In this document: in pieces, positions 2,139 through 61,017 of the stretch | How positions within the stretch are numbered: position 1 is the stretch's first letter | How the letters are laid out: the number at the start of each line of letters is the position of its first letter | From: Verrucomicrobiales bacterium | GTDB lineage: Bacteria > Verrucomicrobiota > Verrucomicrobiia > Verrucomicrobiales > DEV007 | Length of the DNA: 64,000 nt | Reading direction: 5' to 3' | NCBI GenBank assembly: GCA_029213195.1 | Contig: JARGNI010000010.1 | Coordinates: 62,001-126,000 of the forward strand | Notes under the pieces: generated by a model | Database searches by the model: none | Told to the model about the DNA's origin: nothing | What the model saw: only the letters and a program-made list of their open reading frames with translations | Program-made: the position numbers and the translations under genes

Positions 2139-2174
2139 GATGATCTCTTCACTGAACAGGGGAAAGCGCTCGGC

Positions 2175-4274: not shown

Positions 4275-4387
4275 GATCTGTTGCAGCCTATCGGATCGAA
4301 TTCGACTTCCAAGGTCCGGGTTCAGGCCCTTCTCCAGAGAAGCCGCCTCTTGACGACTCCTCCAAGAGCACGTCGACTTCCCTACAC

Positions 4388-5170
4388 ATGAAAGCATGTC
4401 CCCACCTTTTTGCAGGCTTCTGCCTCGCTCTTGCCAGTCTTCCACTCGGGATGCCAGATATCACACGTGCTGAGGAGCATTCCACGACACCGGCCTCCCG
4501 GCAGACTGTTCAAACGCTACCAGAGAAAGTCGCGGAAAAAACGGACAACCTCAACGACCAGTTCTGGCTCTATCTCCCAAAGCGCTATCACGAGGCAGAA
4601 GATGTGAAACTCCCCCTCATTATCTACCTCCACGGCAGCAGTCGCCGAGGTCGCGACGTCGAGCAGGTCAAGGCCAACGGGATTCCTCCGCTTCTCGATG
4701 GGATGGAGGATTTCGACTTTATCGTCGCCTCGCCCCAGGCGCTGGCGAACTATCGCTGGCAGGAATGCTGGCAACCGGACGATCTCATTCTCCTCCTCGA
4801 TCACCTCCTCGCCAACTACCGGATCGATCCCGCTCGCGTTTACCTCACCGGACTCAGCATGGGTGGATACGGCACCTGGGCCTGCCTTAGCAAGCATGCC
4901 GACCGATTTGCCGCCGCGATTCCGATCTGCGGTGGCGGCGACCCGGCCTGGGCGCCAGCGATGAAAGGCCTACCGATCTGGGCTTTCCATGGGGAGGATG
5001 ACTATGTCGTTCCCATCGCCCGGTCCGAGGAGATGGTAGAAGCGGTCAAAGAGGCCGGCGGAAAAGTGAAGTTCACCCGCTATCCGGATACCGGACATGA
5101 TTCCTTCACCCAGACCTATGCAAATCCCGAGATCTTCCGTTGGCTCCTTCAACAGTCTCGCGAGAAGTGA
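4388..5170 (+). CDS. Secreted alpha/beta-hydrolase (esterase/peptidase-like)
   Basis: 260 residues with a Sec signal peptide covering about 1-29. The fold markers are clear: an oxyanion-hole strand IIYLHGSS near 78-85, the nucleophile elbow GLSMGG with Ser157, an acid in HGEDDYVVP (Asp205 most likely) and the catalytic His237 in DTGHDSF. The spacing fits the phospholipase/carboxylesterase or dienelactone-hydrolase-like group often found in polysaccharide-degrading PVC bacteria, where it is a candidate deacylase of sugar or phenolic esters. The substrate is not visible from sequence. It is divergent from the DUF1592 gene across a 113-bp promoter region and convergent with the large gene that ends at 5198. 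Confidence 0.85.
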   Translation: MKACPHLFAGFCLALASLPLGMPDITRAEEHSTTPASRQTVQTLPEKVAEKTDNLNDQFWLYLPKRYHEAEDVKLPLIIYLHGSSRRGRDVEQVKANGIPPLLDGMEDFDFIVASPQALANYRWQECWQPDDLILLLDHLLANYRIDPARVYLTGLSMGGYGTWACLSKHADRFAAAIPICGGGDPAWAPAMKGLPIWAFHGEDDYVVPIARSEEMVEAVKEAGGKVKFTRYPDTGHDSFTQTYANPEIFRWLLQQSREK

Positions 5171-5197
5171 CCTGCCCAACTCGGACTCGCCCTTCTT

Positions 5198-8100
5198 CTA
5201 CTCTTTTCTTTTTGCGTTGTAGCGCCCTTCGATACGGAGGGTGCCATCCGAGTGAAGCAGGTGACCAAGGTTCCCCTCGAGAACGACGCGATCGGCAGCC
5301 TTCTTCGTGACTCCGCGTTTCCAGATGACTTCTTCACCGTTGCGGAGAATGCAAACCCCATCGGCCGTAAACTCCCGGGTATAAGTCTTCAGATACGTCC
5401 AGGTTCCCAGAATATTGTGTCCCTCGAGCGTCACCTTGGGTTGGGGAGGCGCAGGAGGCGGCGGTCCATCGAGCACCGGGACTGGGATATCGACCACTTC
5501 GAAATCGGGTGACAAGGGAGACAGCTTCTTGAGTTTGAGATTCCGAAACTCGATCGGCGCCCCCTCGGACTCGAGACAAAGATATCCAGAGGCAGGCTCG
5601 ATCTGATCTCCTCCCGAAACTTCCACTCCGTTGACCCAGAGCCGGACTTCTCCTTTCACGGCCTTCACGTGATAGTGATTCCACTGGAAGATGCCGCGTG
5701 TCGTTTCCTGGGAAGGAAAGCTCCGGCGTCCTTGAGGTCCAACCGGCGGGAAAGGGTTCATTTTCACGGGTCCGACGGTAAAGACATCGCCGTGACTCGT
5801 GAACCAATCACCCGGTTTCCCAAACTGTTTCTCGTAGACTTCCTTATACCCCAAATCGAGAACCTGGACCTCGATTCCGTGCGGCAATCGCGCCCTTCCC
5901 GCCGCACAGTTGATCAAGGATGGATTGCTGGCCCAGACAAAGACGCCGGAGTTCCCGCCCTTTTTCTTGTGCATCCACTCACACACAAATTCGAAGTCGG
6001 TCAGGGGCTCGCGATAGCGAATCACTCCGGTCGGTCTCCCGGTGCAGTAGACATGCCCCCCATCCCACTTCCAGGTATCGGTGTAGCAATTCACGTTGAG
6101 GAAATCCTCCTCTCCAAGGCTGACCCATTCCGGGCCGGAGGTGTCGACCAAAGCCGGTGCTTCGGGAACGTCTTCGTCGGTTTCTCCGAGGGTGTGCAGA
6201 TACTCGGCCACATCGCGGACATTCTGATCCGTCATCGCCATCTCTGCGGCTGATGGCATCCAGGATTCCTTGGGAAACTCCACCTGAGCCCCGGATCTCC
6301 GGAAGAGGATCTTGCGAGTCTCGCCTCCCATCAACTTCACTTTCAGCGATCCGGCATGCCAGCTGTAGTTGGAGAGCAACCCTTCGATGACATGCTGACC
6401 TTTCTTCAGTCGAACGGGCTTGCCATAGCCATGCGCAAGTTTGGCATCGGGATCGACGATCTCCTGGATGATCTCTTCGACGGTTCGCTGACCACCCCAG
6501 TGAGTCAGGTCCGGGCCGAAGGCGACCCCGCTCCCACCAATGCGATGACACATGACGCAACGAGCGGACTGGAGAGCCCCCTGCTCGCGATCTCCCGGCA
6601 ATTTGGCGATCACGGCGGCCTCGGAAAGCGTGGCATCGGGGTCTCCTCCGAAGCTCTCGGGAATCACGCTACTGAAATCGACATAACGTCCCTGGAGCTC
6701 GTTCAGGTCTTTCGCGATGATTTCATCGATCGTGACCTGGTAGCCTTCACCTGCAGTCCAGGGAAGATCTCCAATTTTCTCCAGTCGCGCTTTGCGGTCA
6801 GCTCGATCTTCTGGAGTTCGGAAACTGGCGAAGGCCATCGCAAGATGGCGGAATTCCTCCAATTCCGGTTTCTGCGATCGGATGCAGGTATCGAGATCCG
6901 CAATTGCCTTGCTCGTATGCAACCGCCAGGCGAGGTCCTTCGCCTTGGTTCCCCAATCGGTAGCTTCTCCAAATAGTGCAGCGACCAACTCTCGGTATAC
7001 CTCCTCTTCCTTCCCTGTAAAGGCGATGCCGAGGGCCTCGAGAGCATACCGATCCGAAGCTTCATAGCCGGCAATCAAGGTGTTCAAAATATGCCGACAG
7101 TCAGAAAAGGAAACGTCGCGAAGGGAAAGCGCCACCTCCCGCCTCACCGCAGCGGAAGTCGCCGATGCGAGAAGGGCCGCCCGATTCAGCATTCCATCCG
7201 GATCGCCAAGGCGGAGAGCTCGATAGGCGGTAACAACGAGACGCTCGTCTTCGTCCTTGAGAAAGTTTTCGACATCGGCGACACCCGACTCCCCCATCTG
7301 CGCCAGGATCCAGATTCCCCGAGCTATGGCTTTCGGATCGGACTCTCTGCGACTCATCCAATTCTTTACCGACTCCGTGACCGGCTCGCCTTTTCCAACC
7401 AGCAGCCAAGCGGCATGAGAGCGAATATTCACCGCCGGACTCTCGAGCGCTGCGAGAAGACCGGGAACGGTTTCGAAATCGACTTCGGGGCTTGCCTCGG
7501 TCTTGCTCCCCTTTCGAGAGATCCGATAAATCGTTCCGCTGACCTGGTTCGTTCTCCGGCTCGTGTCATTGTAGAAGTCACTCAGCAGGAGGCTGCCATC
7601 TGGGGCAACGACAACATCGGTGGGGAGAAAGTGCCGCCCCTTTTCGCCCACCTTCAGGGAAAGAAAGGGTTCGTGCTCTCCCAGGTCGTAATGGGACCCC
7701 TCGAGCTTGGGACGAGTCATCATGACTTCCTTTCTCACCATGCAACAATTCAAATAGATGCCTGCGAGACCGAGCGTGTCATCTTCGATCAGGGCATTGC
7801 CGGTCGGCGATCCCGCGCCATACACGGATCCCGGAGGACAGGCTCCCGGGTAGTTCTCCCGCCAGTGGGACCGCGAATACCGCAGGCTCTTGTCCCATCC
7901 TTCCGGCTCCTCCCAAGTCTTCGCCACCTCTTCCCAGGATCGGCTACCATCACGGAGATCGGCGTAACCCATATTCCCATATTCCATCACCCAGGACGAA
8001 CGGCAATGAGCAGGGTCGTCATTGTCGCTTTGATAGACGTCTCCAAAGGCACTCACCGCCATATCATGGGGATTCCGCATATTGTGCCCAGTCGCCGCGA

Positions 8101-8827
8101 GTCCGGTCCCGTCGGGATTGATCCGCATCGTCACCCCGCCAACGTAGACGTGACCGTCCGAGCTTGCTTTTCCGATCGCCTCAGGAAACCCGTAGTAACA
8201 ACCCGAGAGAAAGTGTCGCCCATCCTTGGTCTGGACGTCCGCCCCGCAGTTCCCGAAAGAGAAATGCCATTGCCCGCTCGGAGCTCCAACCACCGCGTGC
8301 AGGGTATGATCATGTCGGTCATTCTTAAATCCGGTCAGGAACACCTCCCGCTTGTCGATTTCGGGATCGAACAATGCATTCCGATCGACATCGGTATAGA
8401 CGATGATCGACGGCGTCGCCGATAGAACGATCCGATTGTCAAAGACTGCTATGCCGAGGGGCGCGTGACGCAGCCCCGTCTCCGAAACAAAGACATGCGA
8501 TCGATCGGCCTTGCCATCTCGGTCCGAATCCTCGACCACGATGATGGACTGTCCCGTCGCAACCCGTCGTCCCTGGTTGTAATCGATCCCTTCGGTCGCC
8601 CAGACTCGCCCCTTGGCATCGACGTCCATCGCCACGGGAGAGAAGATCAACGGAGATTGCGCCCAGACCTCGATCTTCAGATCTTCCGCAGCGAGGTCAA
8701 ACGCTTCCACGGGAACAAACTCAGCCGGTCCAGCGGACTCGGCGAAACTTTCTCGATCGGGAGCCTGACTGAAGACCAGGGACGATAAGAATCCTGTCAG
8801 GAACAAAACGGGAATCAGTAGTTTCAT
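5198..8827 (-). CDS. PVC-type propeller/HEAT/CxxCH protein fused to DUF1080
   Basis: 1,209 residues from the ATG at 8827, preferred over the ATG at 8845 because it opens directly into a signal peptide (MKLLIPVLFLTGFLSS). Residues about 30-430 form the membrane-bound-dehydrogenase-like beta-propeller typical of PVC bacteria (MDVDAKGRVWATEG at its start). A helical HEAT-like region follows, then a mono-haem domain with CVMCH near residue 757. A DUF1080 (3-keto-disaccharide hydrolase, concanavalin-like) domain lies at about 900-1100 (KKGGNSGVFVWAS), with an extra C-terminal domain of about 80 residues. It sits 18 bp after a sulfatase on the same strand. Likely a periplasmic carbohydrate oxidation/hydrolysis enzyme; activity inferred only. 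Confidence 0.88.
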   Translation of the reverse strand: MKLLIPVLFLTGFLSSLVFSQAPDRESFAESAGPAEFVPVEAFDLAAEDLKIEVWAQSPLIFSPVAMDVDAKGRVWATEGIDYNQGRRVATGQSIIVVEDSDRDGKADRSHVFVSETGLRHAPLGIAVFDNRIVLSATPSIIVYTDVDRNALFDPEIDKREVFLTGFKNDRHDHTLHAVVGAPSGQWHFSFGNCGADVQTKDGRHFLSGCYYGFPEAIGKASSDGHVYVGGVTMRINPDGTGLAATGHNMRNPHDMAVSAFGDVYQSDNDDPAHCRSSWVMEYGNMGYADLRDGSRSWEEVAKTWEEPEGWDKSLRYSRSHWRENYPGACPPGSVYGAGSPTGNALIEDDTLGLAGIYLNCCMVRKEVMMTRPKLEGSHYDLGEHEPFLSLKVGEKGRHFLPTDVVVAPDGSLLLSDFYNDTSRRTNQVSGTIYRISRKGSKTEASPEVDFETVPGLLAALESPAVNIRSHAAWLLVGKGEPVTESVKNWMSRRESDPKAIARGIWILAQMGESGVADVENFLKDEDERLVVTAYRALRLGDPDGMLNRAALLASATSAAVRREVALSLRDVSFSDCRHILNTLIAGYEASDRYALEALGIAFTGKEEEVYRELVAALFGEATDWGTKAKDLAWRLHTSKAIADLDTCIRSQKPELEEFRHLAMAFASFRTPEDRADRKARLEKIGDLPWTAGEGYQVTIDEIIAKDLNELQGRYVDFSSVIPESFGGDPDATLSEAAVIAKLPGDREQGALQSARCVMCHRIGGSGVAFGPDLTHWGGQRTVEEIIQEIVDPDAKLAHGYGKPVRLKKGQHVIEGLLSNYSWHAGSLKVKLMGGETRKILFRRSGAQVEFPKESWMPSAAEMAMTDQNVRDVAEYLHTLGETDEDVPEAPALVDTSGPEWVSLGEEDFLNVNCYTDTWKWDGGHVYCTGRPTGVIRYREPLTDFEFVCEWMHKKKGGNSGVFVWASNPSLINCAAGRARLPHGIEVQVLDLGYKEVYEKQFGKPGDWFTSHGDVFTVGPVKMNPFPPVGPQGRRSFPSQETTRGIFQWNHYHVKAVKGEVRLWVNGVEVSGGDQIEPASGYLCLESEGAPIEFRNLKLKKLSPLSPDFEVVDIPVPVLDGPPPPAPPQPKVTLEGHNILGTWTYLKTYTREFTADGVCILRNGEEVIWKRGVTKKAADRVVLEGNLGHLLHSDGTLRIEGRYNAKRKE

Positions 8828-8845
8828 AAGATTGGGTTCATCCAT

Positions 8846-10240
8846 TCAACGCACCTCGACATCCTCTGCCCAGGCTCGATACAGCCCCAACAGCCTTTGA
8901 ACGAGGTCTGGATTTTGTGAGGAGTAATCAACCGTCTCGGGCTCCGCATTGCTGAGAGAATAAAGCAAATAGCGGGGTTCATTACCTCCCTTTCCAGGAG
9001 GGGAACCGATCAGCTTCCACTCCCCTTCTCTTACCGCCCATCGGTTCTGCCACTGAAAGTAGAGAACAGGATGAGCGGTCGGAGCATCCGGAGAGTCGAT
9101 GATGGGTTGGAGACTGCGACCATCGAGCTCCACGTTTGGAAGATCGACCCGACACCACTCCATCAGGCTGGGATACCAATCCATGATCGTGACGATCTGA
9201 TCTCGGACCACTCCCTGGGGAAGCTTGGCCGGCCAGCTGACCATAGCTGGAACCCGCACGCCGCCCTCGAGAAAGCTCCCCTTCGCACCGATCCATTTGC
9301 CCGTATTCCCGCCGCCACCATGAGCGCTATAGTAGTGGCCCTTCGGAAATCCACTCGCATGATCCTCAATGTCGATCGGACCTTTGTCCTCCACGGAATG
9401 GCCGTTATCACTCTGAAAAATGACGATCGTATTCTCCGTCAGCGAAAGTTCATCGAGTTTCTCCAGGACCAACCCGATGTAGTGATCGGTGGTCGTTGTA
9501 ATCGCAGCGTAGGACCTGCGAGGCATGGGAAGGTGCTCATACATTTTCGTATGCTCTTCCAAAGCCTGCTCGGGATAATGAGGGATATTGAATCCCAGGT
9601 AGAGTAGAAATGGCTGGTCGGTATTCTTCTCCACGAACTCGAGCGCCCGATCCGTGATCAATTCGGGAAAATACTCCCCTTTCCGGAATACCTCCTCCGT
9701 TCCTTCGTAGAGATCGTGATACCCTTTTCCATGGAGAAAGAAATGGTTGTAGTTGTCGATGAATCCGTTTCGGATTCCGAAAAACTCATCGAATCCCTGT
9801 TTCATCGGTCCGAAGTCGCGATGAGACCCCACGTGCCACTTTCCGAACAGCGCAGTCCGATACCCAGCCGTTTTCAGCGCCTCGGCGATCGTCACTTCGT
9901 CGAGAGCCATATTTCGACCATCAGGCCCTTTCATGTTCCCCTGGGTCCAGGAGTTGATCCCGGATCGCTGAGGATGGCGTCCCGTGAGAAGCGCGGCTCT
10001 CGACGGACAACAAACCGTGTGAGCGTAGGCTTGGGTAAAGCGAATCCCATGAGCTGCGATTCGGTCCATGTTCGGGGTATGAAGATCATTCGATCCGTAG
10101 CACCCCGCATCGAGCGTCCCTTGATCATCCGTATAAAAGATCACCACGTTGGGCCGTTTTCCCTCCTCATCGCATAAGGCGAGACAGGGAAAAAAAGCAA
10201 ACGCCAATAGCGAGAGGGAAAGAAAGGGGAAGATTCTCAT
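8846..10240 (-). CDS. Secreted sulfatase (formylglycine-dependent)
   Basis: 464 residues from the ATG at 10240, chosen because it begins a signal peptide (MRIFPFLSLSLLAFAFF); the longer frame from 10312 adds 24 unlikely residues. Family S1 arylsulfatase features are present: metal-binding DD in IFYTDDQG, the formylglycine motif CCPSRAALLTG with Cys77 as the residue to be oxidised, and GKWHVGS further on. The order and SYAAITTTTDHYIG region suit the arylsulfatase A / N-acetylgalactosamine-6-sulfatase group. It precedes the DUF1080/haem giant by 18 bp, so desulfation and further attack on a sulfated glycan are probably co-expressed. No anaerobic maturase or FGE gene is in the window. Confidence 0.93.
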   Translation of the reverse strand: MRIFPFLSLSLLAFAFFPCLALCDEEGKRPNVVIFYTDDQGTLDAGCYGSNDLHTPNMDRIAAHGIRFTQAYAHTVCCPSRAALLTGRHPQRSGINSWTQGNMKGPDGRNMALDEVTIAEALKTAGYRTALFGKWHVGSHRDFGPMKQGFDEFFGIRNGFIDNYNHFFLHGKGYHDLYEGTEEVFRKGEYFPELITDRALEFVEKNTDQPFLLYLGFNIPHYPEQALEEHTKMYEHLPMPRRSYAAITTTTDHYIGLVLEKLDELSLTENTIVIFQSDNGHSVEDKGPIDIEDHASGFPKGHYYSAHGGGGNTGKWIGAKGSFLEGGVRVPAMVSWPAKLPQGVVRDQIVTIMDWYPSLMEWCRVDLPNVELDGRSLQPIIDSPDAPTAHPVLYFQWQNRWAVREGEWKLIGSPPGKGGNEPRYLLYSLSNAEPETVDYSSQNPDLVQRLLGLYRAWAEDVEVR

Positions 10241-10437
10241 AAGCTCGTTGATCACAGTCTTCGATGGATGGGGGAACGCCAGAAGGCCGCCCAGGGGAAA
10301 TCGATCACTCATACGAATCAGGAATCGAATCGTAATCCTCTGCTGGATACAAGCCCGGAGGAGACCTCATTATTCCCTGATCCCGCAACCTTGCGATTCG
10401 ACAAGTCGGTAACGAACCCCATAGCCTGCGAACTGAA

Positions 10438-12000
10438 ATGAACTTCAGAAGCCTTCTCCTTGCACTCCTATGTGCCATTCAATCCGATTCGGTTCTCTTT
10501 GCGGAGCAGGAGGACCAGACCCTACCCAGAGGATATCGAGAGGTCGGTGAAGACAAGGCGGAAGCCATCAAGGAACTCTGTGTCGCGACGGCAAACACCG
10601 GTCTTTTCTCCGGAGCTGTGCTCGTCGCAGAAAAAGGAGAAGTCCTCTACCAAGGTGCGTTCGGACTCGCGAACCGAGAATGGGAAATTCCGAACACCGT
10701 CGACACCAAATTTCGGCTCGCCTCGGTCAGCAAACAGTTCTGCGCAGTTCTCATCCTGCAATTGGCCCAGGAAGGAAGGATCGGACTGGACGATGTGATC
10801 ACGGATCACTTGCCCTGGTATCGAGCAGACACCGGCGACCGAATTACAATTCACCACCTCCTCAGCCACCAGTCCGGAATCAAGGACTACACCGCGAGTT
10901 ACGACTACCGCAGCACGATCTCACGACTCCCGTTCCAGAAGGACGAATTCATCAAGATCTATTGCAGTGATGACCTCATCCACGAGCCCGGAACCCTTTA
11001 CGCCTACTGCAACGCTGGATACTCCATCCTCGGACGAATCATTGAGAAAGTGACTCGCAAGTCTTTTGAAACCAACCTGCAAGAACGCATTTTTACACCA
11101 CTTCGGATGAACGAAAGTGGCTACGATCGAAACAGCAAGATCCTTGAGAAACGTGCCAGTGGCTATACCCGAGGAATATTCGAATACACCAATGCTGACT
11201 ACCTGGACATGGACTCCTCACCGGGAGCCGCTGGAGCACTCTATTCGACAATCGGAGACATGTTTCGCTGGGATCGAGCCCTCTACACCGATCTACTTCT
11301 CAATGAAAAATATCGACGGCTCATGTTCACGCCCAATCGTGATGTGCCCGAGGTCAAAGCCGCAGGAGGTCGTCCCCAGAGTCGCTACGGATACGGATGG
11401 CAAATCTATACGACAACGCATCCGGTTACGAAGCGCAGAACCAAAGTCGTCAACCATGGCGGTGCCATCAGCGGCTTCAGAGCCATGGAACATCGGCTCG
11501 TCGAGGAGGATGCTTTTGTTATTCTCCTCTGCAACCAGGGAGACGATTTCGGGAAGTCCGACGTCTGGAACGCGGTCACCCGGCTCGGAAGGGAACTGAT
11601 CCATCTCGTCACCGACCAACCCTATCGCCTCCCCGGTGCTCCTCCTGTTTCCCAGGAACTAAGGATCTATCAAATCGTGCAGGAACAGGATGTGGATGCA
11701 GCCATCGCTTGGTTCAAGGACAACGGGAAACCTTCCGCATGGGGAGGTAGCACCATCGCCGTATCTGAGAAACTTCTCGAGGAGGGAAAGGTGGAGGCTG
11801 GGCTACAACTGATGGACTTCGAAGTGGAACAATCCCCCGGAAAGGTGTGGATCCTGAGAAAAGCGACCGAGACCTTCCTTCGCTATGGGGAGCCCGAAAA
11901 GGCAATGAGAGTTGCACAACTCGCCCTTGAGCGAAAACCTGAGGATGAACGACTTCTGGGCCTCCTCAATGATGCCAAGGAAGATCTCAAGAGGAAGTAG
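10438..12000 (+). CDS. Serine hydrolase, beta-lactamase class C family
   Basis: 520 residues with a signal peptide in the first 22. The penicillin-binding/class C beta-lactamase catalytic set is intact: SVSK with Ser96 and Lys99, YCN with Tyr190, and an HGGAISGF element in place of KTG. The C-terminal 120 residues look like short helical repeats (TPR-like), which are absent from true beta-lactamases. Homologues act as esterases, D-aminopeptidases or peptidoglycan-modifying enzymes, so resistance should not be inferred. It is divergent from the sulfatase (197-bp gap) and convergent with the outer-membrane protein gene. Confidence 0.88.
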   Translation: MNFRSLLLALLCAIQSDSVLFAEQEDQTLPRGYREVGEDKAEAIKELCVATANTGLFSGAVLVAEKGEVLYQGAFGLANREWEIPNTVDTKFRLASVSKQFCAVLILQLAQEGRIGLDDVITDHLPWYRADTGDRITIHHLLSHQSGIKDYTASYDYRSTISRLPFQKDEFIKIYCSDDLIHEPGTLYAYCNAGYSILGRIIEKVTRKSFETNLQERIFTPLRMNESGYDRNSKILEKRASGYTRGIFEYTNADYLDMDSSPGAAGALYSTIGDMFRWDRALYTDLLLNEKYRRLMFTPNRDVPEVKAAGGRPQSRYGYGWQIYTTTHPVTKRRTKVVNHGGAISGFRAMEHRLVEEDAFVILLCNQGDDFGKSDVWNAVTRLGRELIHLVTDQPYRLPGAPPVSQELRIYQIVQEQDVDAAIAWFKDNGKPSAWGGSTIAVSEKLLEEGKVEAGLQLMDFEVEQSPGKVWILRKATETFLRYGEPEKAMRVAQLALERKPEDERLLGLLNDAKEDLKRK

Positions 12001-49066: not shown

Positions 49067-50992
49067 CTACTCGACCAGTTGGAGATGATCGATATTGGCA
49101 CCGCTCCGATCGAGCGCTTCCAAGGTAATGGTGTTCTCGCCCTGAGTCAGTTGGACCTTCTGGCTCAGGTCCTCCCAGCTCCCCCATCCCCCGGTCGACG
49201 GAAAGGGGAGGGTTTCGACCTCGCGATCGTTCACCTTAAGCTTCAAGGGACGCCCCCGACTGTCTCCGAGCGCATAACGAATGACGATCTCGTGCTCACC
49301 TGCCGTTTCTGCCTCGACCGTCCACGTCACGGACTGGTCCCCCGAACCAAAGTCGATGAATCCCGTTCCCGAAAAGCCCTCGTACCTGGCGTGATGGGAC
49401 GGCCCTTTCACGAGAGCGTCCTCGGCTTCATACACGACTCCGCGAGGATCCTTCACCGGAACCGGCTTGGTTGGGATCGATACTTTCGAAGACTTCGCTT
49501 TTCCTGCCTGGAGAGGTTCCGGGGGAGTATTCTCCAGAAGACGGTTTACCGTGTAGGCGACAAGCCGATTGCCCAGTTCATCCCCGTCCTGAGAAGAAAT
49601 CTCTCCGATGGTCACCTCATGGATGTGCCAGGCTTCAAGTTCTTCAAGATGAACCTCGACGACTCGTCCCCCATTCAAGATCTCGATCGACTCGACCGCT
49701 ACTGGGGTCACGTCCATCTGCGGGGAACCATAGGAGGCGTGATATTGATAGTAGTAGCGTTGAAACGGCCAATTCCCGATCTCTTTTGCCGATGCCTCAT
49801 CAACCGGCTTGGTGAAGGTGAACCGGAATCCAGTCCGGGTGAGGTTCACATCCTCTACCTCGAAGGGCATCTCGCCATTCCACTCGACTCGCTGAATGCC
49901 TTCGCTGCCTGCCCAGGAATGCTTGGTTTGCCCCACGTAGAGACTTCCATCGGGTGCCCAGTCCATTCGATTGCAACCTCGCTGGAGAGAACCTCCGTCG
50001 ATGAACGGAATACAGGCTCCCTGCAATTCACCCCCGACTTCTTCGAGCATCACTCGCATGATGCGGGCTTTGTTCATCTCCCCGACGAGAAGTTGGCCGG
50101 TAAAGGGTCCGAAATTCGCTTTCTCCGAGATCGCCAGAACCTGGGTCGATGAGTTCGCCATCGAGCCATGAGGAAAAACAACGCAGGCCCGCGTGCGAAG
50201 TTTCGCAAGTTCCTCGATTGGAGTTTCCAACGGAACGCCTTCGAAGTCCTCTTTCCAGGCAAGACTCGCGACATGGCCGTAGAAGCGTCCCTCCTGGACG
50301 TGGAACAGTTTGCTGGAGCCAACCCAGTCGCCCTGGTTGTCGGTCACAAAGAGATTTCCCTTAAGGTCGAAACCCAGCCCATTCGGCGTCCGATGCCCGT
50401 AGCTCCACGGGATCGTTTCACCGTCCTTGGTCAACTTCACGACGCAACCGCGATACGGAGTGGAGGCATGCATCCTGCCAGGACGCCCTCGCGGATCGAA
50501 TTCGCCACGAACGATGGTGCGGACTCCGTCTCCTGCGGATCCGGTTCCCAATGCGAAAAAGTAATTCCCCTTCTCGTCGCGAACGGGCGTGAAATGAAAT
50601 TCGTGGTAGTTCCCCGACATCCCGAACTGATCGGTCAGGACTTCGTAGTCATCCGCTTTTCCGTCACCGTCCGTGTCGCTCACCCGGGTCAGTTCAGGAC
50701 GTTGCGAGACGACCAGTTCCGTATTGGAAATCGCGATGACTCCGAGTGGATTGTGCAATCCTTCGGCAAAGAGGGTCCAGGCTTGGGACTCGGTGTCGTA
50801 GAGAAAGATTTCTCCGCTGGGCAGACAGACGACGAGTCGTCCATCGGGAAGAAAGGTGAGTCCGTCGATTTGCTTGGTCGAAAACTTGGAGGGTGGCACC
50901 GGAATATTTGTCACCGAGTACTGCGGCGCAGTATCTGCCTTCGCAAGAAAGCAACTCAGGGAAAGGAAAAGGCAGGAAAAGAGAGATTTCAC
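49067..50992 (-). CDS. Secreted beta-propeller protein with C-terminal CBM-like domain
   Basis: 641 residues from a GTG at 50992 that forms a 4-base GTGA overlap with the upstream cytochrome gene. Signal peptide 1-19. Residues about 40-390 are a PVC-type propeller of the membrane-bound dehydrogenase/sorbosone dehydrogenase kind (DGLTFLPDGRLVVCLPSGEI, RVSDTDGDGKADDYEVL, NGLGFDLKGNLFVTDNQGDW). An Ig-like region follows at about 400-490. A CBM6/35-like module at 525-640 begins VVYEAEDALVKGPSHHARYE and ends in GANIDHLQLVE. Together with the haem protein upstream this could oxidise a sugar and pass electrons on; inferred. Confidence 0.83.
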   Translation of the reverse strand: MKSLFSCLFLSLSCFLAKADTAPQYSVTNIPVPPSKFSTKQIDGLTFLPDGRLVVCLPSGEIFLYDTESQAWTLFAEGLHNPLGVIAISNTELVVSQRPELTRVSDTDGDGKADDYEVLTDQFGMSGNYHEFHFTPVRDEKGNYFFALGTGSAGDGVRTIVRGEFDPRGRPGRMHASTPYRGCVVKLTKDGETIPWSYGHRTPNGLGFDLKGNLFVTDNQGDWVGSSKLFHVQEGRFYGHVASLAWKEDFEGVPLETPIEELAKLRTRACVVFPHGSMANSSTQVLAISEKANFGPFTGQLLVGEMNKARIMRVMLEEVGGELQGACIPFIDGGSLQRGCNRMDWAPDGSLYVGQTKHSWAGSEGIQRVEWNGEMPFEVEDVNLTRTGFRFTFTKPVDEASAKEIGNWPFQRYYYQYHASYGSPQMDVTPVAVESIEILNGGRVVEVHLEELEAWHIHEVTIGEISSQDGDELGNRLVAYTVNRLLENTPPEPLQAGKAKSSKVSIPTKPVPVKDPRGVVYEAEDALVKGPSHHARYEGFSGTGFIDFGSGDQSVTWTVEAETAGEHEIVIRYALGDSRGRPLKLKVNDREVETLPFPSTGGWGSWEDLSQKVQLTQGENTITLEALDRSGANIDHLQLVE

Positions 50993-52149
50993 GGTGTGAC
51001 GGGAGTTGCTGGATTTTTCTCAATGATCGTGACTTGGAAGTCGGTCGAATCGGACTTGGTGACCCTCAGAACTCCGTCGTCGGAGAGCGCCCCTTTCGAA
51101 GTAGAAACATCCGCCAAGTCACTGATGGTAAGACGCATCGCAAGTTCTGCGGGCGGACTCAACGAAAATGACCTCACGATTCCGAGGCCAACCGAGGTCG
51201 CTCGAATCGATTCCCGAATCTCATAGTCTCCGAGGGAGACCCGGAACTCGGGATAGCCATCGAGAAGCCGGTAGCCTCGATATCGGGGAGCCTCGGAGAC
51301 CCCTTCGATCTGAAATGGAAAATCGCTAGCCTCGGTGGTGTCGTAGAACGGCTCTTTCCGATTCGTCGCGGCGAGAACGTCATAGTCTTCCGGCTTCAGG
51401 AGACTCGATTTTGCCCGGTAGTAGGGAACCCCATTGAATTCGGCCACCGGCTTTCCATTGCTTGACCAGTGGACCTGGTTTCCCCGGATGAATCCTCCCT
51501 TGGTCCAAGCGTATCTCAGTCGGCATTCCCCGGCATCCCAGCAGAAATACTGATTCCCTGGCAAGGCAACCGCGAAAGCAGCTGGGGAAGCTCCCGGCAT
51601 GAAGGTCCGATAAACGATGGGTTCGGTCACCGTGGTCAACAGATCGTCGAAGCTGGGTTCGAAAGTTCCGTTCCTTCTTCGATATTCTTTCTCAAAAGGA
51701 AAGGCTTTGAGCAGTGATTCCGGGGTGTAGACGGCTTCCGGAAGCTCGGCTCTTGCCTTGGCCACTTCCTTCGCGGTGACCATACGTTCCTCGTTCCCCC
51801 AGGCATGATTCACGTAGGAAACGATCGCAGCGATCTTGGCATCATCGAACAGCAGCTGGGGTGGCATCGCCGAGTAGTATCGCTTTCCGTTCACCTTGAT
51901 CGGGCCCGCGAGCCCCCGCAACGTAATGGCAATGGTTCGATCCGCACTCCCTTTGAGCCAGTCGCTCCCAGCGAGTGGCGGGATCGACCCGGGCTGCCCC
52001 TTCCCATCCTCCATGTGACAGGCAACACAAGAGCCCGCGCTGTTGTAGAGCGCCTTGCCTTCTTCGATGATTTTGGAATCGGGAGCTGCCAGGCTGGAGG
52101 AAACTCCGACTCCCCAGAAGGCGAGCAAAGCGAGAATTCGTGAATGCAT
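50989..52149 (-). CDS. Secreted cytochrome c with C-terminal beta-rich domain
   Basis: 386 residues. Signal peptide about 1-22. A class I cytochrome c domain covers about 25-120, with the haem site CVACH (41-45), a Met ligand likely in YYSAMPPQ, and DAKIAAIVSYVNHAWG closing the fold. The remaining 260 residues are beta-rich with many Tyr (FCWDAGECRLRYAWTKGGFI, YRGYRLLDGYPEFRVSLGDY); this pattern occurs in several PVC cytochromes but has no named function that I recognise. It is translationally coupled to the propeller gene downstream (GTGA overlap), making an electron-carrier/dehydrogenase pair plausible. Confidence 0.85.
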   Translation of the reverse strand: MHSRILALLAFWGVGVSSSLAAPDSKIIEEGKALYNSAGSCVACHMEDGKGQPGSIPPLAGSDWLKGSADRTIAITLRGLAGPIKVNGKRYYSAMPPQLLFDDAKIAAIVSYVNHAWGNEERMVTAKEVAKARAELPEAVYTPESLLKAFPFEKEYRRRNGTFEPSFDDLLTTVTEPIVYRTFMPGASPAAFAVALPGNQYFCWDAGECRLRYAWTKGGFIRGNQVHWSSNGKPVAEFNGVPYYRAKSSLLKPEDYDVLAATNRKEPFYDTTEASDFPFQIEGVSEAPRYRGYRLLDGYPEFRVSLGDYEIRESIRATSVGLGIVRSFSLSPPAELAMRLTISDLADVSTSKGALSDDGVLRVTKSDSTDFQVTIIEKNPATPVTP

Positions 52150-55572: not shown

Positions 55573-55986
55573 TTGATCGATGGGTATGCAACGGGTTTCC
55601 GGTTGAAGAAATCGGGCTTCATTCTTTGTATCCTCGCTACCACCGTCGTCACGGAGGTCCATTGGGCCGTGATGCAATCGGTAACGTGGGTGGCGATGAT
55701 CCAGACTTCCAATTCTTCGGCCACGCTGGGGGAGAAGCTCCTCTCAACGATCTCGGGAGAAGCTCCCTGCGATCATTGTGAAGCGCTCGCCGAGGAGAAA
55801 GGAGCCTCACGCTCCGAAGTTCTTTCGATGATCGGTCAGGCTCCGCTTCTGGCGCCGACGCCATGGCAAAAGGCCAGCACCTCGCGGACTGACATTTATC
55901 TCTTTTTGCTTCGCGAAGGGTCCTCTTCGACCCCGCTTCCCGGAGCATCTCCCCCGCTTCCGCCTCCGGAAGAAACGGTTTCCTAG
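55573..55986 (+). CDS. Small membrane-anchored protein with CDHC motif
   Basis: About 127-137 residues; the start is uncertain (TTG at 55573, or TTG at 55603 just before the hydrophobic segment). KKSGFILCILATTVVTEVHW is a single N-terminal membrane or signal segment. HWAVMQSVTWVAMIQ follows, then EKLLSTISGEAPCDHCEALA, and a Pro-rich low-complexity tail. This combination (HWxxxQxxxW, then a CxxC in a GxxPCxxC context) is familiar from small PVC and proteobacterial proteins encoded beside outer-membrane and metal-related genes; no function is assigned. It lies 123 bp before the outer-membrane protein gene. Confidence 0.6.
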   Translation: MIDGYATGFRLKKSGFILCILATTVVTEVHWAVMQSVTWVAMIQTSNSSATLGEKLLSTISGEAPCDHCEALAEEKGASRSEVLSMIGQAPLLAPTPWQKASTSRTDIYLFLLREGSSSTPLPGASPPLPPPEETVS

Positions 55987-56109
55987 AACCTCCTCCTCAG
56001 CAATTCGAAGCCGAATTCGCTGATCTTTTCTCAGCAGCTCCCCTCCGGGATCTTGTTGATCGTCGCAGCGCCTGCGCTGCGCCAAACCAACCTATTGATA
56101 CCTATTTCT

Positions 56110-57168
56110 ATGAAACCTTTTTCGATTTTTTCTACTCTCCTTCTCATTTCCACCGTCGCCCTGCAAGCGGGCGATGATGCCTCCACCAAGCAACCCATCC
56201 TGGACCCCAAGGACTGTCACGATGTGCCCTACGATTGCCATCGGGTCGATGCTCATGCTCCGATCGGGGTGATGGGAGACCATACGCACCATGCGGGTGA
56301 GTTCATGGCCTCCTATCGCTACATGTTCATGCAGATGCGCCCCAACTTCGTGGGTAGCAGTGAAGTCTCCGCCGGTTCTCAGCTGAGTCCGACCGGATTC
56401 CGGGTCATGCCGCAGGACATGCAGACGGAAATGCACATGTTCGGTCTGATGTATGCTCCCACCGACGACCTGACGCTCGCTTTCATGCTGCCACAGATCG
56501 ACAAGTCGATGCAGCATCTCGTCATCAACGGAACGACCTTCCGGACCAACACCAACGGCGTCGGCGATTTCAAATTCGGCGGTCTTCTCGATATCTTCGA
56601 AGAAGGCAATTCGAAGATGCATCTCAACCTCATGATGTCCGCTCCCACCGGATCCACGACCGAAACCGGTTTTGTTCCTCCGGCAGGACGCGTCGTTCGC
56701 CTCCCCTACCCCATGCAGTTGGGATCCGGAACCTGGGATCTCAAACCCGGGATCACCTACGCCGAGCAATGCCGGAACTATTCCTGGGGAGCCCAGCTCC
56801 TCGGAACGGTCCGCCTCGGCACAAACGACGAAGGATATTCCCTCGGAGACGATATCACAGCGAACCTTTGGGGGGCTTTGAAGCTGAGCGATTCTCTCAG
56901 CACCTCGCTGCGCCTCTCCGCGACATCCTGGGGAGATATCGATGGCCGAGATCCTCTCATTGCTCTTCCCGTGCCCACGGCACGTCCTGACCTCCGAGGG
57001 GGTGAGCGAGTCGACCTTTTCTACGGAATCAACTATCTCTTCCGGAAGGGACCGCTCTCTGGACACCGACTCGCCGTCGAGGCCGGCATTCCGCTCCACC
57101 AGGACCTTGATGGTCCCCAGTTGGGAATGGACTGGATGATGACGGTCGGTTGGCAGAAGGCATTCTAA
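56110..57168 (+). CDS. Met- and His-rich outer-membrane transporter-like protein
   Basis: 352 residues from the ATG at 56110. Signal peptide about 1-20. The mature N-terminus has a block HAPIGVMGDHTHHAGEFMAS followed by YRYMFMQMR and VMPQDMQTEMHMFGLMYAP, very rich in Met and His. The rest is beta-barrel-like, resembling the MetA-pathway phenol-degradation/transporter superfamily, and ends in an aromatic residue (MMTVGWQKAF). Related proteins are often found next to copper or other metal handling genes, so a copper-linked role is a reasonable guess. It lies between the CDHC protein and a cytochrome c on the same strand. Confidence 0.78.
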   Translation: MKPFSIFSTLLLISTVALQAGDDASTKQPILDPKDCHDVPYDCHRVDAHAPIGVMGDHTHHAGEFMASYRYMFMQMRPNFVGSSEVSAGSQLSPTGFRVMPQDMQTEMHMFGLMYAPTDDLTLAFMLPQIDKSMQHLVINGTTFRTNTNGVGDFKFGGLLDIFEEGNSKMHLNLMMSAPTGSTTETGFVPPAGRVVRLPYPMQLGSGTWDLKPGITYAEQCRNYSWGAQLLGTVRLGTNDEGYSLGDDITANLWGALKLSDSLSTSLRLSATSWGDIDGRDPLIALPVPTARPDLRGGERVDLFYGINYLFRKGPLSGHRLAVEAGIPLHQDLDGPQLGMDWMMTVGWQKAF

Positions 57169-57185
57169 TCACCGAGATAACGTGA

Positions 57186-57215
57186 TTTACATACCGGGGG
57201 CGAAACCGCTATTCT
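57186..57215 (+). promoter_or_regulatory. Candidate promoter of the cytochrome c gene, leaderless
   Basis: TTTACA (57186-57191), 18-nt spacer, TATTCT (57210-57215), then seven bases to the ATG at 57223. It lies in the short space after the outer-membrane protein gene, so the cytochrome may be made independently of it. Confidence 0.4.
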
Positions 57216-57222
57216 CGTGGGA

Positions 57223-57666
57223 ATGAGAACAGCATTTCGCCCTTTTTTCTGCCTGCTCGCCTGCACCGCGACATTTTCAGTTGCTACCCTCGAGTCGCAG
57301 GAAAAGAAAGAGAGTGCTCGCCCGGTCATTCCGAAAGGCAGTGTCGCTGCAGGCAAAACCATCTTTGTCGCGAAGGGCTGCTACCAGTGCCACTCTGCGG
57401 GCGAAATCAAATTCCCTGTCTCAGAACTCGAGGAGACTCTCGTGATCGAGTTGGGAGGCGAAAAACAGCAAGCCTGGAGTCGAGACGATTACGCCCGAGC
57501 AATCCTGAACCCCAACCATACCGTCTCTCCCGATTATGAGAAGGCGATGATGATCCTGGGAGATCACTTTAAAGCCGTGAACTCTCCCATGCCGGGATTC
57601 AACGACATTCTCACCGCGTCCGATCTGATTCATCTCAGCACCTTCCTCACCAGTCTCCCTGAATAG
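57223..57666 (+). CDS. Secreted mono-haem cytochrome c
   Basis: 147 residues from the ATG at 57223, preferred to the GTG at 57217. Signal peptide about 1-24. The haem attachment site is CYQCH (53-57), and a Met axial ligand is likely in NSPMPGF near 125; LIHLSTFLTSLPE closes the fold. It resembles single-haem c-type subunits attached to dehydrogenases or oxidases. It sits 54 bp after the Met/His-rich outer-membrane gene and 21 bp before DUF3500, in one direction, so it may be part of one system. Confidence 0.88.
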   Translation: MRTAFRPFFCLLACTATFSVATLESQEKKESARPVIPKGSVAAGKTIFVAKGCYQCHSAGEIKFPVSELEETLVIELGGEKQQAWSRDDYARAILNPNHTVSPDYEKAMMILGDHFKAVNSPMPGFNDILTASDLIHLSTFLTSLPE

Positions 57667-57687
57667 ACTTCCTTACCCAAAATCCCT

Positions 57688-58656
57688 ATGAAACGCCGAT
57701 CCTTCCTCCGAAATTCCGTTGCTTCCACGGCCGCGCTTTGCGCGACGCCATCTCTCTTTGCAGCCAAGAAATCCGCCGAACCGGAAACGGTCGTGAAGTC
57801 GCTCTTTGATTCCCTGACCGACGCGCAAAGAAAGGAACTGACCTTCGACTTTGCCCACCCCCTTCGCACCAAGATCTCGAACAACTGGCACATCACGAAA
57901 CAGCGGATCGGGAACTTTCTCGACGAGGACCAGAACGCCATGGTCAAAGAAATTTTCCTCAAGGCACACTCCGAGGAATACGCCGAGACGGTTTATCAGC
58001 AGGTCGTCCACGACAGCGGAAAGAAGGGATTTGAAGATTCCTCCATCGCCATTTTTGGCGAACCCGGAACAGGAGACTTCGAGTTCGTCCTCACCGGCCG
58101 TCACACGACACGGAGGATCGATGGAGACTCGGTCGCCGGGAAAGCCTTCGGAGGCCCGATCTTCTACGGACACGCGGCCGACGGATTCTACGAGGGCCGG
58201 GATCATCCGGGCAATGCCTACTGGTATCAAGCGAAGGCTGCCAACCAGGTCTACCAACTTCTCGACGGCAAGCAGCAGGAGAAAGCCCTCCTCGAATACG
58301 AGCCTGCCGATGATGCCTCCACGATCAAGTTGAAACGGGCCGCCGGAGACCTACCCGGACTTTCCTTTGCTGACATGACCAGCGATCAACAGGAGGGCGT
58401 GCAGAACATTCTCAAGGAATTGCTGCTCCCCTTCCGCGAGGTCGACCGAAAGGAGTCGATGAAGTTGATCAAGAAAGCGGGCATGGAAAACCTCCATCTC
58501 TCCTTCTACGAGGAAGGCGACATCGGAAACGACAAGGTCTGGGACAACTGGAGAATCGAAGGCCCCCACATGGTCTGGTATTTCCGGGGAGCTCCCCACG
58601 TTCATACCTGGGTTCACATCTCAGACCCGGACACCCCGCGCGAAAAGCGGGGCTGA
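57688..58656 (+). CDS. DUF3500 domain-containing protein, Tat-exported
   Basis: 322 residues. A twin-arginine signal (MKRRSFLRNSVASTAALC) precedes a DUF3500 body: FDFAHPLRTKISNNWHIT, FEFVLTGRHTTRRIDGDSV, AFGGPIFYGHAADGFYEG with His residues, and WRIEGPHMVWYFRGAPHVHT near the end. The conserved His-rich patches hint at metal binding, but no activity has been shown to my knowledge. It follows the cytochrome c gene by 21 bp and is closed by a hairpin at 58681-58729. Confidence 0.88.
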   Translation: MKRRSFLRNSVASTAALCATPSLFAAKKSAEPETVVKSLFDSLTDAQRKELTFDFAHPLRTKISNNWHITKQRIGNFLDEDQNAMVKEIFLKAHSEEYAETVYQQVVHDSGKKGFEDSSIAIFGEPGTGDFEFVLTGRHTTRRIDGDSVAGKAFGGPIFYGHAADGFYEGRDHPGNAYWYQAKAANQVYQLLDGKQQEKALLEYEPADDASTIKLKRAAGDLPGLSFADMTSDQQEGVQNILKELLLPFREVDRKESMKLIKKAGMENLHLSFYEEGDIGNDKVWDNWRIEGPHMVWYFRGAPHVHTWVHISDPDTPREKRG

Positions 58657-58680
58657 TTCAGCAGCGATTGTCCTTTTCGA

Positions 58681-58729
58681 AAATGCGGCCCTCGCGCGAC
58701 AGGAAAGTCGCCCGGGGCCGTTTGCATTT
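58681..58729 (+). terminator. Hairpin terminator after DUF3500
   Basis: CGGCC (58686-58690) pairs with GGCCG (58716-58720), and an inner GCGAC/GTCGC pair (58696-58700 with 58707-58711) closes around AGGAAA. AAATG and CATTT extend the outer ends, and TTTGCATTT follows. Likely end of the 55573-58656 transcript. Confidence 0.6.
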
Positions 58730-58774
58730 GGCCGTGCTCGGTGGAAGAATTCGTTGTTCGAATAGAAGTGCCCC

Positions 58775-60400
58775 ATGACCGACTTTGCCTACCACAAACC
58801 ATTCCCTCTCGGATCCGATTCCACGGAGTATCGACTCGTCACCACCGAGGGCATCGAGACCACCGAGTTCGAGGGACAAGAGATTCTCAAGGTTTCCCCC
58901 GAGACGCTCACGAAACTGGCGAACGAAGCGGTGAAGGACATCTCCTTCATGCTTCGCCCCGGTCATCTTCAGCAGGTCGCCGCCATTCTCGACGACGAGG
59001 AAGCGACCGACAACGATCGCATGGTCGCACTGACCCTGTTGCGAAATGCCGAGATTGCGGCCCGGGGAATTCTACCCATGTGCCAGGATACCGGAACCGC
59101 CATCGTCGTTGGCAAAAAAGGTCAGCAGGTCTGGACCGGAGCCAACGATGAAGAAGCCCTCGCTGCCGGCATCTGGAAGGCCTACCAGGAAGAGAACCTG
59201 CGCTACTCGCAGATGGCACCGCTGACCCTCTTTAACGAGGTCAACACGAAGAGCAATCTCCCTGCCCAGATCGAACTCTATGCCACCGAGGGCGACGCCT
59301 ACGAATTTCTTTTCATCACCAAGGGAGGAGGCTCGGCCAACAAGACCTTTCTCTACCAGGAGACCAAGGCACTGCTCAATGAGAAGACTTTCGTCGACTG
59401 GGCCGTCGGCAAGATGGCCACTCTCGGCACCTCTGCCTGCCCGCCCTATCACATGGCTTTTGTCGTGGGGGGAACCAGTGCCGAGATGACCCTGAAAACC
59501 GTGAAGCTCGCCTCGACCCGCTACTACGACGAACTCCCCACCGAGGGCAGTGACAAGGCCCAGGCTTTCCGCGATGTCGAGATGGAGAAACGCCTCCTCG
59601 CCGAAGCCCGGGAAGTCGGAATCGGAGCGCAGTTCGGAGGAAAATATTTTGCCCTCGATGTTCGCGTCATCCGCCTGCCTCGCCACGGAGCGAGCTGCCC
59701 TGTCGGACTCGGGGTCAGCTGCTCGGCCGACCGTCAGGCCAAGGCCAAGATCACCAAGGACGGCGCTTTTCTTGAGCAACTGGAAACCAATCCCGGGCAA
59801 TACATCCCGGAGAAGTGGAAGGATCACCAATTCCACGGAGTCGCTGTCGATCTCAATGCCGGAATGGAGGAAACCTTGAAGACGCTGTCCCAGTATCCGG
59901 TCACGACCGCGCTCGAACTGACCGGAACGATCATTGTCGCTCGAGACATCGCTCATGCGAAGCTCCGCGAGATGATCGAAGAGGGAAAAGATCTCCCCGA
60001 CTACTTCAAGGAATACCCGGTCTACTACGCCGGCCCGGCAAAGAAACCCGACGGCATGCCGAGCGGGTCCTTCGGGCCCACCACGGCCGGACGAATGGAT
60101 CCCTACGTCGAACTCTTCCAGTCTCGGGGAGCCTCCATGGTCATGATCGCCAAAGGAAACCGGAGCCAGCAGGTGACCGATTCCTGCAATAAGCATGGCG
60201 GATTCTACCTGGGCTCCATCGGAGGTCCCGCGGCCATCCTTGCCCAGAATCATATCAAGAAAGTCGAAGTCCTCGACTTTCCGGAGCTCGGAATGGAAGC
60301 CGTCTGGAAAATCGAGGTGGAGAAGTTCCCCGCCTTCATTCTCGTGGATGACAAGGGGAATGATTTCTTTCGCGATCTGAATTCCTGCCCAGTCTCTTGA
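58775..60400 (+). CDS. fumA: Class I (Fe-S dependent) fumarate hydratase
   Basis: 541 residues, the full single-chain length with the alpha and beta parts joined. It interconverts fumarate and malate in the TCA cycle using a [4Fe-4S] cluster. The three cluster cysteines are probably Cys103 (MCQDTGTA), Cys222 (GTSACPPYH) and Cys316 (GVSCSADR). Substrate-site blocks such as [32 protein letters not shown] and [19 protein letters not shown] are intact. The symbol is by family; fumA and fumB cannot be told apart here. It is transcribed alone, with a possible stem at 60403-60426 downstream. Confidence 0.95.
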
Positions 60401-60492
60401 CCGGGGATTCCTGCTGCGTCATCCCCCAATCTCGCCAAATCGTTTCCAAGATGAGACTGGCTGGCAGCACGTCAATTCGCTACACTACAGCC

Positions 60493-61017
60493 ATGAGATC
60501 GCTTTCAGCCTGTTTTCTTTTCTCCCTGCTCCTGGTCGGTTCTTCCATCGGCCAGGATTCCTTAATTTCGAAGCATCCCTTCTTTTCCCCCATGCTGGAT
60601 GGCTCCTGGACTGAGAAGGGAGAGATGGCTCTCCCCCAGGGCGCTGTGGCCGGGGAGTCTACCTCGGAAGCCAAGGCGATCCTCGGAGGGCAATGGATTC
60701 AGCAGGACGGCAAGGCGGCATTTGGCAGCACCAACTGGGAATGGCGCTGGATGTTTCGACTCGCAAAAACACAAGACGGAAAGGAAGTCGTCCAGGCACG
60801 CTGCATGGATACCAATGGACAAGTCGCTGACTACCTGGGCGAGATTATGAACGATGGAAAAGTTCTGCGCCTTTCCCGATCTCTCAGCGAAACCGTCAAA
60901 AATGTCATCCAGGTCACGAACCAGGACGATGGCGGTCGACTCGTCGAAGTGGCCATCATCGACAACACAGGGAAAACCTCGCTGCAATACAAAGCATTGG
61001 GAAAGAAGAACCCGTAA
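60493..61017 (+). CDS. Small secreted DUF1579-like protein
   Basis: 174 residues from the ATG at 60493 (the frame back to 60397 has no signal). Signal peptide about 1-19 (MRSLSACFLFSLLLVGSSIG). The mature part is a single beta-barrel-like domain with FFSPMLDGSWTEKGEM, ILGGQWIQQDGKAAFG, WEWRWMFRLAKTQDGKEVVQ and a final VEVAIIDNTGKTSLQYKALG, similar to DUF1579-type lipocalin-like proteins. Function unknown; ligand binding is possible. A -10-like TACACT lies 6 nt before the ATG. Confidence 0.65.
   Translation: MRSLSACFLFSLLLVGSSIGQDSLISKHPFFSPMLDGSWTEKGEMALPQGAVAGESTSEAKAILGGQWIQQDGKAAFGSTNWEWRWMFRLAKTQDGKEVVQARCMDTNGQVADYLGEIMNDGKVLRLSRSLSETVKNVIQVTNQDDGGRLVEVAIIDNTGKTSLQYKALGKKNP

Follow-up and report, generated by a model that had tools for sequence, protein, structure and literature searches.

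Two small bacterial proteins, CruR of Bordetella pertussis (bp2923, a DUF2946 protein; PMC9426467) and CutF of Rhodobacter capsulatus (PMC9973294), control the copper gene that lies behind them. As described in the available parts of these reports, both carry a cysteine pair and a C-terminal proline motif, and CutF raises its target, the multicopper oxidase CutO, upon copper. CruR acts through a translation arrest that copper relieves and through Rho-dependent termination. Arrest by CruR in vitro needs the arginine of its RAPP motif, according to the accessible text of a further report (PMC12992588). Here, we analyze four open reading frames (ORFs) at positions 55573–58656 of a 64,000-nucleotide stretch of Verrucomicrobiales DNA, hereafter the window. 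The first two, encoding a small CxxC protein and an outer-membrane protein (OMP), form module A (55603–57168), and the last two, encoding a cytochrome c and a DUF3500 protein, form module B (57223–58656). We give a probability of roughly 0.6 to the reading that module A is a copper-responsive leader followed by a Met-rich outer-membrane channel, and that module B is unrelated and was placed beside it by rearrangement. This reading is built on the modules and their linkage, on motifs and their spacing, on the predicted fold and on neighboring genes.

The small protein is encoded at 55603..55986 on the + strand (127 residues). The start codon is probably the TTG at 55603, where the proteins of relatives begin in the alignment; the longest ORF begins at the TTG at 55573, giving a range of 127–137 residues depending on the start. 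No match was found in Pfam (E up to 1) or NCBIfam, a Pfam scan of the alignment was likewise empty, and phage families were matched at E 0.01 by neither the small protein nor the OMP. An N-terminal hydrophobic segment is visible in the alignment of 25 small proteins. Two pairs of residues are invariant in this alignment, C60 and C63 (numbered from 55591) and P125 and P126, in a family that is otherwise little conserved (mean column identity 19%). In the window protein the cysteines form the sequence CDHC (codons 55768..55779), at which the nascent peptide may bind Cu(I), and the prolines belong to a PPP within the last 8 residues (55960..55968), a putative translation-arrest motif. The distance between CxxC and PP was counted in 24 of the 25 sequences, the remaining one lacking PP within its final 25 residues. 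It is 61 residues in the window, a value found in 8 of the 24, lies between 59 and 65 in 21 and between 61 and 63 in 18, and reaches 70–73 in three.

In 19 of 20 fetched loci from the genus and order, and in 7 of 20 from the phylum, a profile of the small protein, seeded with some of the same proteins that it then finds, places it ahead of the OMP in the same orientation. We also applied a rule for leader-like ORFs (60–260 residues, C-x2/3-C, PP in the last 15 residues, stop at most 450 nucleotides upstream). Such an ORF precedes 50 of 122 OMP genes, compared with 8 of 954 controls, the latter being at least 150 residues long and away from locus ends, a filter that was not applied to the OMP genes.

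The intergenic region between the two genes (55987..56109, + strand) is 123 nucleotides long, C-rich and structured, with 43 C and 22 G (C/G 1.95), a folding z-score of −4.05 and a last stem at about 56065–56080. These properties recur in relatives: in 24 gaps, from the 27 pairs lying on one strand, the median C/G is 1.72, against 1.14 in 153 controls (p 5.5e-8), and the median folding z-score is −2.26 in 23 gaps versus −0.56 in 80 sampled controls (p 1e-4). We looked for a hairpin that shields the Shine–Dalgarno sequence, as in CutF, and rejected it: the last stem ends 19–35 nucleotides ahead of the OMP start in 16 of the 23 folded gaps, and a Shine–Dalgarno-like 4-mer occurs in the last 20 nucleotides of only 1 of 24 gaps. 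Since a shielding hairpin is not supported in these gaps, Rho-type attenuation seems the likelier model, and the C-rich gaps point in the same direction, as in CruR. Taken together, the small ORF looks like a copper-responsive leader of the CruR/CutF type. The preliminary description of this DNA, made from the sequence alone, had reported a small CDHC membrane protein; the CDHC ORF is indeed present, and a leader ORF fits it better than a structural membrane protein.

Two observations on individual relatives may be added. In the gaps between small protein and OMP of loci L180 and L181, four and three copies of TGTACCCTRTT are found, a repeat that none of the 22 other gaps in the comparison contains. 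At positions 6400–8347 of locus L190 (genome G324), two pieces resembling the small protein are split by an ORF of 402 residues on the other strand. This ORF we take to be transposase-like, perhaps marking an insertion near or in the leader.

The OMP (56110..57168, + strand; 352 residues) matches PF13557 at 23.7 bits, with a cut-off of 22, and the same family is matched at E 0.001 or better by 34 of the 49 OMP sequences aligned. An AlphaFold2 model based on this alignment is a barrel with a mean pLDDT of 91. Its best structural match is the COG4313 channel Pput2725 (4rl8; Z 25.4, root mean square deviation 2.4, 254 aligned residues, the alignment beginning at residue 53), followed by FapF (5o65; Z 24.3). 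Among the fold matches listed, which these two head and below which other families could lie, there is no TolC-type duct. The barrel of 4rl8 is 12-stranded, and the accessible text on COG4313 channels describes an N-terminus that closes the barrel and proposes a role in the uptake of hydrophobic molecules (PMC4493636). The OMP shares with these channels both the barrel fold and an N-terminal segment ahead of strand 1. It differs from its solved relatives by an invariant set of Met and His residues, and the matches of the OMP profile to those relatives are confined to profile positions 148–274, past the strands that carry the methionines. The family is large: at least 585 pattern matches were obtained, 556 of which were confirmed as relatives, and the best 80 were kept.

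The 49 aligned sequences come from many phyla and share 35 invariant columns, of which 10 are Met and 2 are His. The excess of Met is significant (p 2e-6, hypergeometric; Met makes up 20 of the 352 residues), while that of His is not (p 0.30). MHMFGLMY (residues 108–115), the example of a Met-rich cluster given in the preliminary description, is present in the OMP, and the conservation of Met in the family exceeds chance. Eight of the invariant methionines lie in strands 1–3, all at even positions: 66, 74 and 76 in strand 1 (56305..56337), 104, 110 and 114 in strand 2 (56419..56451), and 126 and 134 in strand 3 (56485..56511). Positions 72 and 108, in strands 1 and 2, are Met in 91% and 97% of the family, and positions 106 and 124 in 87% and 81%, the window protein having Thr and Ala at the latter two. 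Of the other invariant Met and His residues, M55, H58 and H60 (56272..56289) precede strand 1, at the plug position where COG4313 channels carry their barrel-closing N-terminus, and M202 is located elsewhere. With Met left out of the calculation, the even face is more polar than the other in strand 1 (hydropathy −2.12 vs −0.57) and in strand 3 (−0.88 vs 0.55), which suits the lumen. We infer that the methionines of strands 1–3 face the lumen of the barrel.

These features suggest how module A might work. The nascent leader would sense copper through its CxxC and, depending on copper, arrest or fail to arrest at the C-terminal PP motif. This arrest would in turn set either the transcription of the OMP mRNA, by Rho-type attenuation as in CruR, or its translation, as in CutF. 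The OMP, a putative copper-regulated and TonB-independent outer-membrane channel, would offer Cu(I) or a copper complex a path across the outer membrane along the Met face of strands 1–3 and the Met/His plug segment. Copper let in this way might reach haem-copper oxidases and other cuproenzymes. The binding of copper, the arrest, and the transport with its direction are all deductions.

The neighborhood of the OMP in other genomes provides a further link to copper. We searched 120 OMP loci for copper genes with a few seed proteins. The counts lack phylogenetic independence and include at least three duplicates, as L212, L278 and L283 look like repeats of L178, L153 and L154. There are 11 loci with PCuAC, which in 10 of them is the co-oriented neighbor of the OMP (leader, OMP and PCuAC occur together in Methyloligella sp. 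GL2, L251, for example); SCO is found in five, multicopper oxidases in two (L264 and L266) and cco genes in one, giving 16 loci with any such match. Pfam confirms PCuAC, SCO, a CusF–SCO fusion and a multicopper oxidase near the OMP, each in a single member. In a genome of the same genus (G313; L184, G313:C115:34000-45860, 979-10643), a cbb3 oxidase operon lies directly before the small protein and the OMP, all on one strand, in the order ccoNO, a ccoQ-sized ORF, ccoP, ccoG, DsbD_2, a ccoI-type ATPase, small protein and OMP, where the cco gene names beyond the Pfam domains are presumed. The window's own genome has one SCO match and, on another contig, a ccoNO match. Module A is therefore probably copper-related, given also the conserved methionines and the leader anatomy. 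The copper link drawn in the preliminary description for all four genes is borne out for the first two, with copper-chaperone neighbors in part of the family, and not for the cytochrome and DUF3500 genes.

Regulatory genes are also found beside the OMP. Ten of the 120 loci contain a two-component kinase, eight of them within three genes, and in L154, L231, L256, L263, L268, L274, L283 and L287 a histidine kinase and a response-regulator-like gene stand next to the OMP, mostly in divergent orientation. The kinase scanned, from L229, has a PilS-like transmembrane domain. Such pairs are possibly redox- or copper-sensing systems.

Some of these neighbors could also belong to copper or silver efflux or tolerance, with the leader switching the OMP on at high copper in the manner of CutF and CutO. 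An RND gene (ACR_tran) just before the OMP in L169 and the multicopper oxidases of L264 and L266 would suit this function, as would the induction of the CutF target by copper (PMC9973294, available text). However, genes of oxidase copper supply (PCuAC, SCO, cbb3) are commoner among the copper neighbors found, and for the COG4313 channels, the nearest fold among solved structures, a role in uptake has been proposed (PMC4493636). We therefore regard a role in efflux as unlikely, though it deserves to be kept in mind.

A second alternative takes the OMP for a usual COG4313 channel that transports hydrophobic molecules, with methionines that are structural or serve a greasy substrate, and the small ORF for a merely conserved small protein. 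The PF13557 match and the Z of 25.4 to 4rl8, for which hydrophobic uptake has been proposed (PMC4493636, in part), are in line with such a channel, and so is the large share of loci in which no copper gene was found (104 of 120). The ten Met and two His that are invariant across many phyla, the copper-chaperone neighbors and the leader-like ORFs upstream all speak against it, and we consider it improbable.

Several results weigh against the copper leader and channel assigned to module A. Under the rule used, 72 of the 122 OMP genes have no leader-like ORF, and the same 104 of 120 loci lack a PCuAC, SCO, cco or multicopper-oxidase match, as searched with few seeds. The RND gene of L169 and the multicopper oxidases of L264 and L266 are also compatible with efflux or detoxification. 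Within the genus, the distribution of the OMP does not follow that of the cbb3 oxidase: a strong FixO match is present in 11 of 18 genomes with the OMP and in 6 of 11 without it (29 of 33 genomes, four OMP-less ones being left out). The small protein is not a DUF2946 protein (PF11162) according to Pfam (0 of 25 sequences), and hhalign against DUF2946 gave 14 columns at a probability of 2.1% and an E of 0.023. Finally, an arginine two places before the last PP occurs in 1 of 25 sequences, the window's PPPEETVS having none there and none after the PP, and the hydropathy of strand 2 is reversed (0.18 vs −1.00). The displaced arginine of the arrest motif and the hydropathy of strand 2 speak against parts of the proposed mechanism.

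The separation of modules A and B is based on the positions of the four genes in related genomes. Each protein was searched in 56 genomes, 33 of them from the genus, and linkage, defined as a distance within 2 kb, was counted only where a genus genome contained the two genes concerned. Paralogues with weak matches to DUF3500 or to the cytochrome were excluded, as were two weakly matching DUF3500 fragments (G311:C103 and G315:C249), split matches of one gene were joined, and the best places were transferred by hand. The small protein and the OMP are linked in 14 of 15 genomes and the cytochrome and DUF3500 in 20 of 22, whereas the OMP and DUF3500 are linked in a single genome out of 16, that of the window. 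In one further genome these two lie on the same contig, 243 kb apart. As many genomes are fragmented, missing linkage across contigs is by itself weak evidence, and gene order is stronger.

Among 19 fetched OMP loci of the genus, seven keep the window's upstream SDR gene (family c11). In five, the OMP is directly followed by genes of two families, c10 and c7, and in L179 by the same pair with one ORF between, the other 13 having different followers or the end of the locus. The members scanned contain planctomycete-type cytochrome domains (c10) and DUF1552 (c7). In the window's genome, the best match to this DUF1552 protein (70% identity) is on contig C65 beside a c10 gene, with c31 and c32 genes nearby, as in relatives. 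A single DUF1552 protein has 33 matches in this genome, a large paralogous set.

Two unrelated modules are the best explanation of these data. The junction between them (57169..57222, without strand) exists in this genome alone among the 16 genus genomes with both parts, and a rearrangement in this lineage is its most plausible origin, given the gene order of relatives and the presence of the usual OMP followers on another contig here. A misjoined assembly is a possible alternative. The proposal of the preliminary description that all four genes form one system for the uptake and oxidation of a metal or metal complex is very improbable: adjacency, common orientation and close spacing favor it in the window, but as a conserved unit it is refuted across the genus by the single linkage of OMP and DUF3500 in 16 genomes, by the separate blocks in which each half sits in relatives, and by the c10 and c7 genes, which come after the OMP in 6 of 19 genus loci and here are on another contig.

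Module B consists of a cytochrome c (57223..57666, + strand) and a divergent DUF3500 protein (57688..58656, + strand). The cytochrome matches PF00034 at 27.7 bits and has one CxxCH (CYQCH) and, in the alignment, a conserved Met in NSPMPxF. At E 1e-5 its matches are confined to the genus (25 of 56 genomes, 1 of 14 genera). The DUF3500 protein matches PF12006 at 64.1 bits, with a cut-off of 27.2, and its N-terminus, MKRRSFLR, reads by eye as a twin-arginine-type signal, in line with the cytochrome c and the Tat-exported DUF3500 protein of the preliminary description. RRxF followed by L or I is kept in 12 close relatives and not in the seven distant ones aligned. H139, H304 and H306 are invariant across 20 DUF3500 sequences, divergent and canonical. 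Beyond the genus, members of the subfamily with 52–54% identity are present in five genomes, all from a single other family of the order. A solved relative exists (PDB 9x86, 'Amc20', E 7.5e-56); judged by title, none of the papers listed looked related to it, and none of those with DUF3500 dealt with the function of this family. A fold of the DUF3500 protein by itself reached a pLDDT of 37 and was not used. A periplasmic redox pair is a natural guess for module B, and this analysis found no metal link for either protein.

The ORF list agrees with the earlier account of four genes in order on one strand. The hairpin said to end the block is less clear. CCCCGC..GCGGGG at 58634–58652 lies within the last codons of DUF3500, has no T-run and is not among the results of a terminator scan, and the region 58615–58775 folds scarcely better than shuffled sequence (z −1.30). 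The next gene on the same strand, at 58775, encodes a class I fumarase. In 8 of 20 fetched loci a fumarase gene is likewise the immediate neighbor behind DUF3500, with an alcohol-dehydrogenase-like gene next in seven of those eight, so it is not clear that the block ends at 58656. The window's order past DUF3500 is that of these seven loci except for one extra small ORF.

This ORF (60397–61017, +) lies between the fumarase and alcohol-dehydrogenase-like genes, which are directly adjacent in seven of the eight fetched loci with both; it has a DUF1579 match under the cut-off. Upstream of the four genes, at 49067–52149 (−), a cytochrome c gene adjoins a gene for a DUF7133/GSDH protein with CBM6/CBM35 matches. 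The two may be an ordinary periplasmic sugar-oxidation pair.

Little is known of how copper passes the outer membrane. In Rhizobium, a porin-like protein with a part in the transit of copper has been described (PMC6011978, available part), and among the papers listed, no report linking the present OMP family with copper was found in titles and abstract openings. If our reading of module A is correct, a small Met-rich barrel of many phyla, often behind an ORF resembling a copper leader, would represent a simple second route for copper, and control by copper arrest peptides would extend to the Verrucomicrobiota, which are not mentioned in the main texts of the CruR (PMC9426467) and CutF (PMC9973294) papers as available. 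More tentatively, with odds that we place below even, a widespread and undescribed family of small TonB-independent barrels may conduct Cu(I) by way of ten methionines arranged as a ladder on three neighboring strands, eight of them invariant and two present in more than 90% of sequences. In the same proposal, the Verrucomicrobiota would have their own class of copper-sensing arrest-peptide leaders with a distinct CxxC-to-PP spacing, and the system would serve respiratory oxidases.

The organization of module A is reminiscent of CruR as presented in the accessible text (PMC9426467). In both, CxxC and a C-terminal PP stand at a nearly fixed spacing in the first gene, which is followed by a long C-rich gap and then by an outer-membrane transporter linked to copper. 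In contrast to CruR, the host belongs to the Verrucomicrobiota, no DUF2946 match is found by Pfam, and the target is a COG4313-type barrel instead of a TonB-dependent transporter. The motifs differ as well. The window has PPPE in place of RAPP, an arginine follows the last PP in 17 of 25 sequences and a tryptophan in four, and the usual 61–63 residues (18 of 24) from CxxC to PP compare with about 45 to RAPP in CruR. Homology to DUF2946 was considered and rejected, with Pfam, NCBIfam and hhalign all negative, so that the resemblance to CruR is one of design only.

True DUF2946-type leaders do occur before the same OMP family, in 13 loci according to a local profile for which these very 13 proteins were the source; of four scanned with Pfam, three are above the cut-off and one is below. 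In these proteins the CxxC-to-PP distance is 45–50 residues in 9 of 10 (13 aligned, three without CxxC).

With CutF (PMC9973294, available text), the small protein has in common an N-terminal hydrophobic segment, a cysteine pair, a C-terminal proline-rich motif and a structured gap before a copper gene. It carries CxxC where CutF has CxxxC, its target is different, and the last intergenic stem here ends 26–29 nucleotides before the OMP start. A third comparison is offered by the CrtA orthologues, TonB-dependent copper transporters of 707–911 residues without conserved Met or Cys, according to the accessible part of the report (PMC12914433), and found in a few operons together with PCuAC and ScoI. 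The OMP, with its 352 residues and conserved methionines, is outside this size range, and it shares with CrtA the position of an outer-membrane barrel behind what would be a copper leader ORF.

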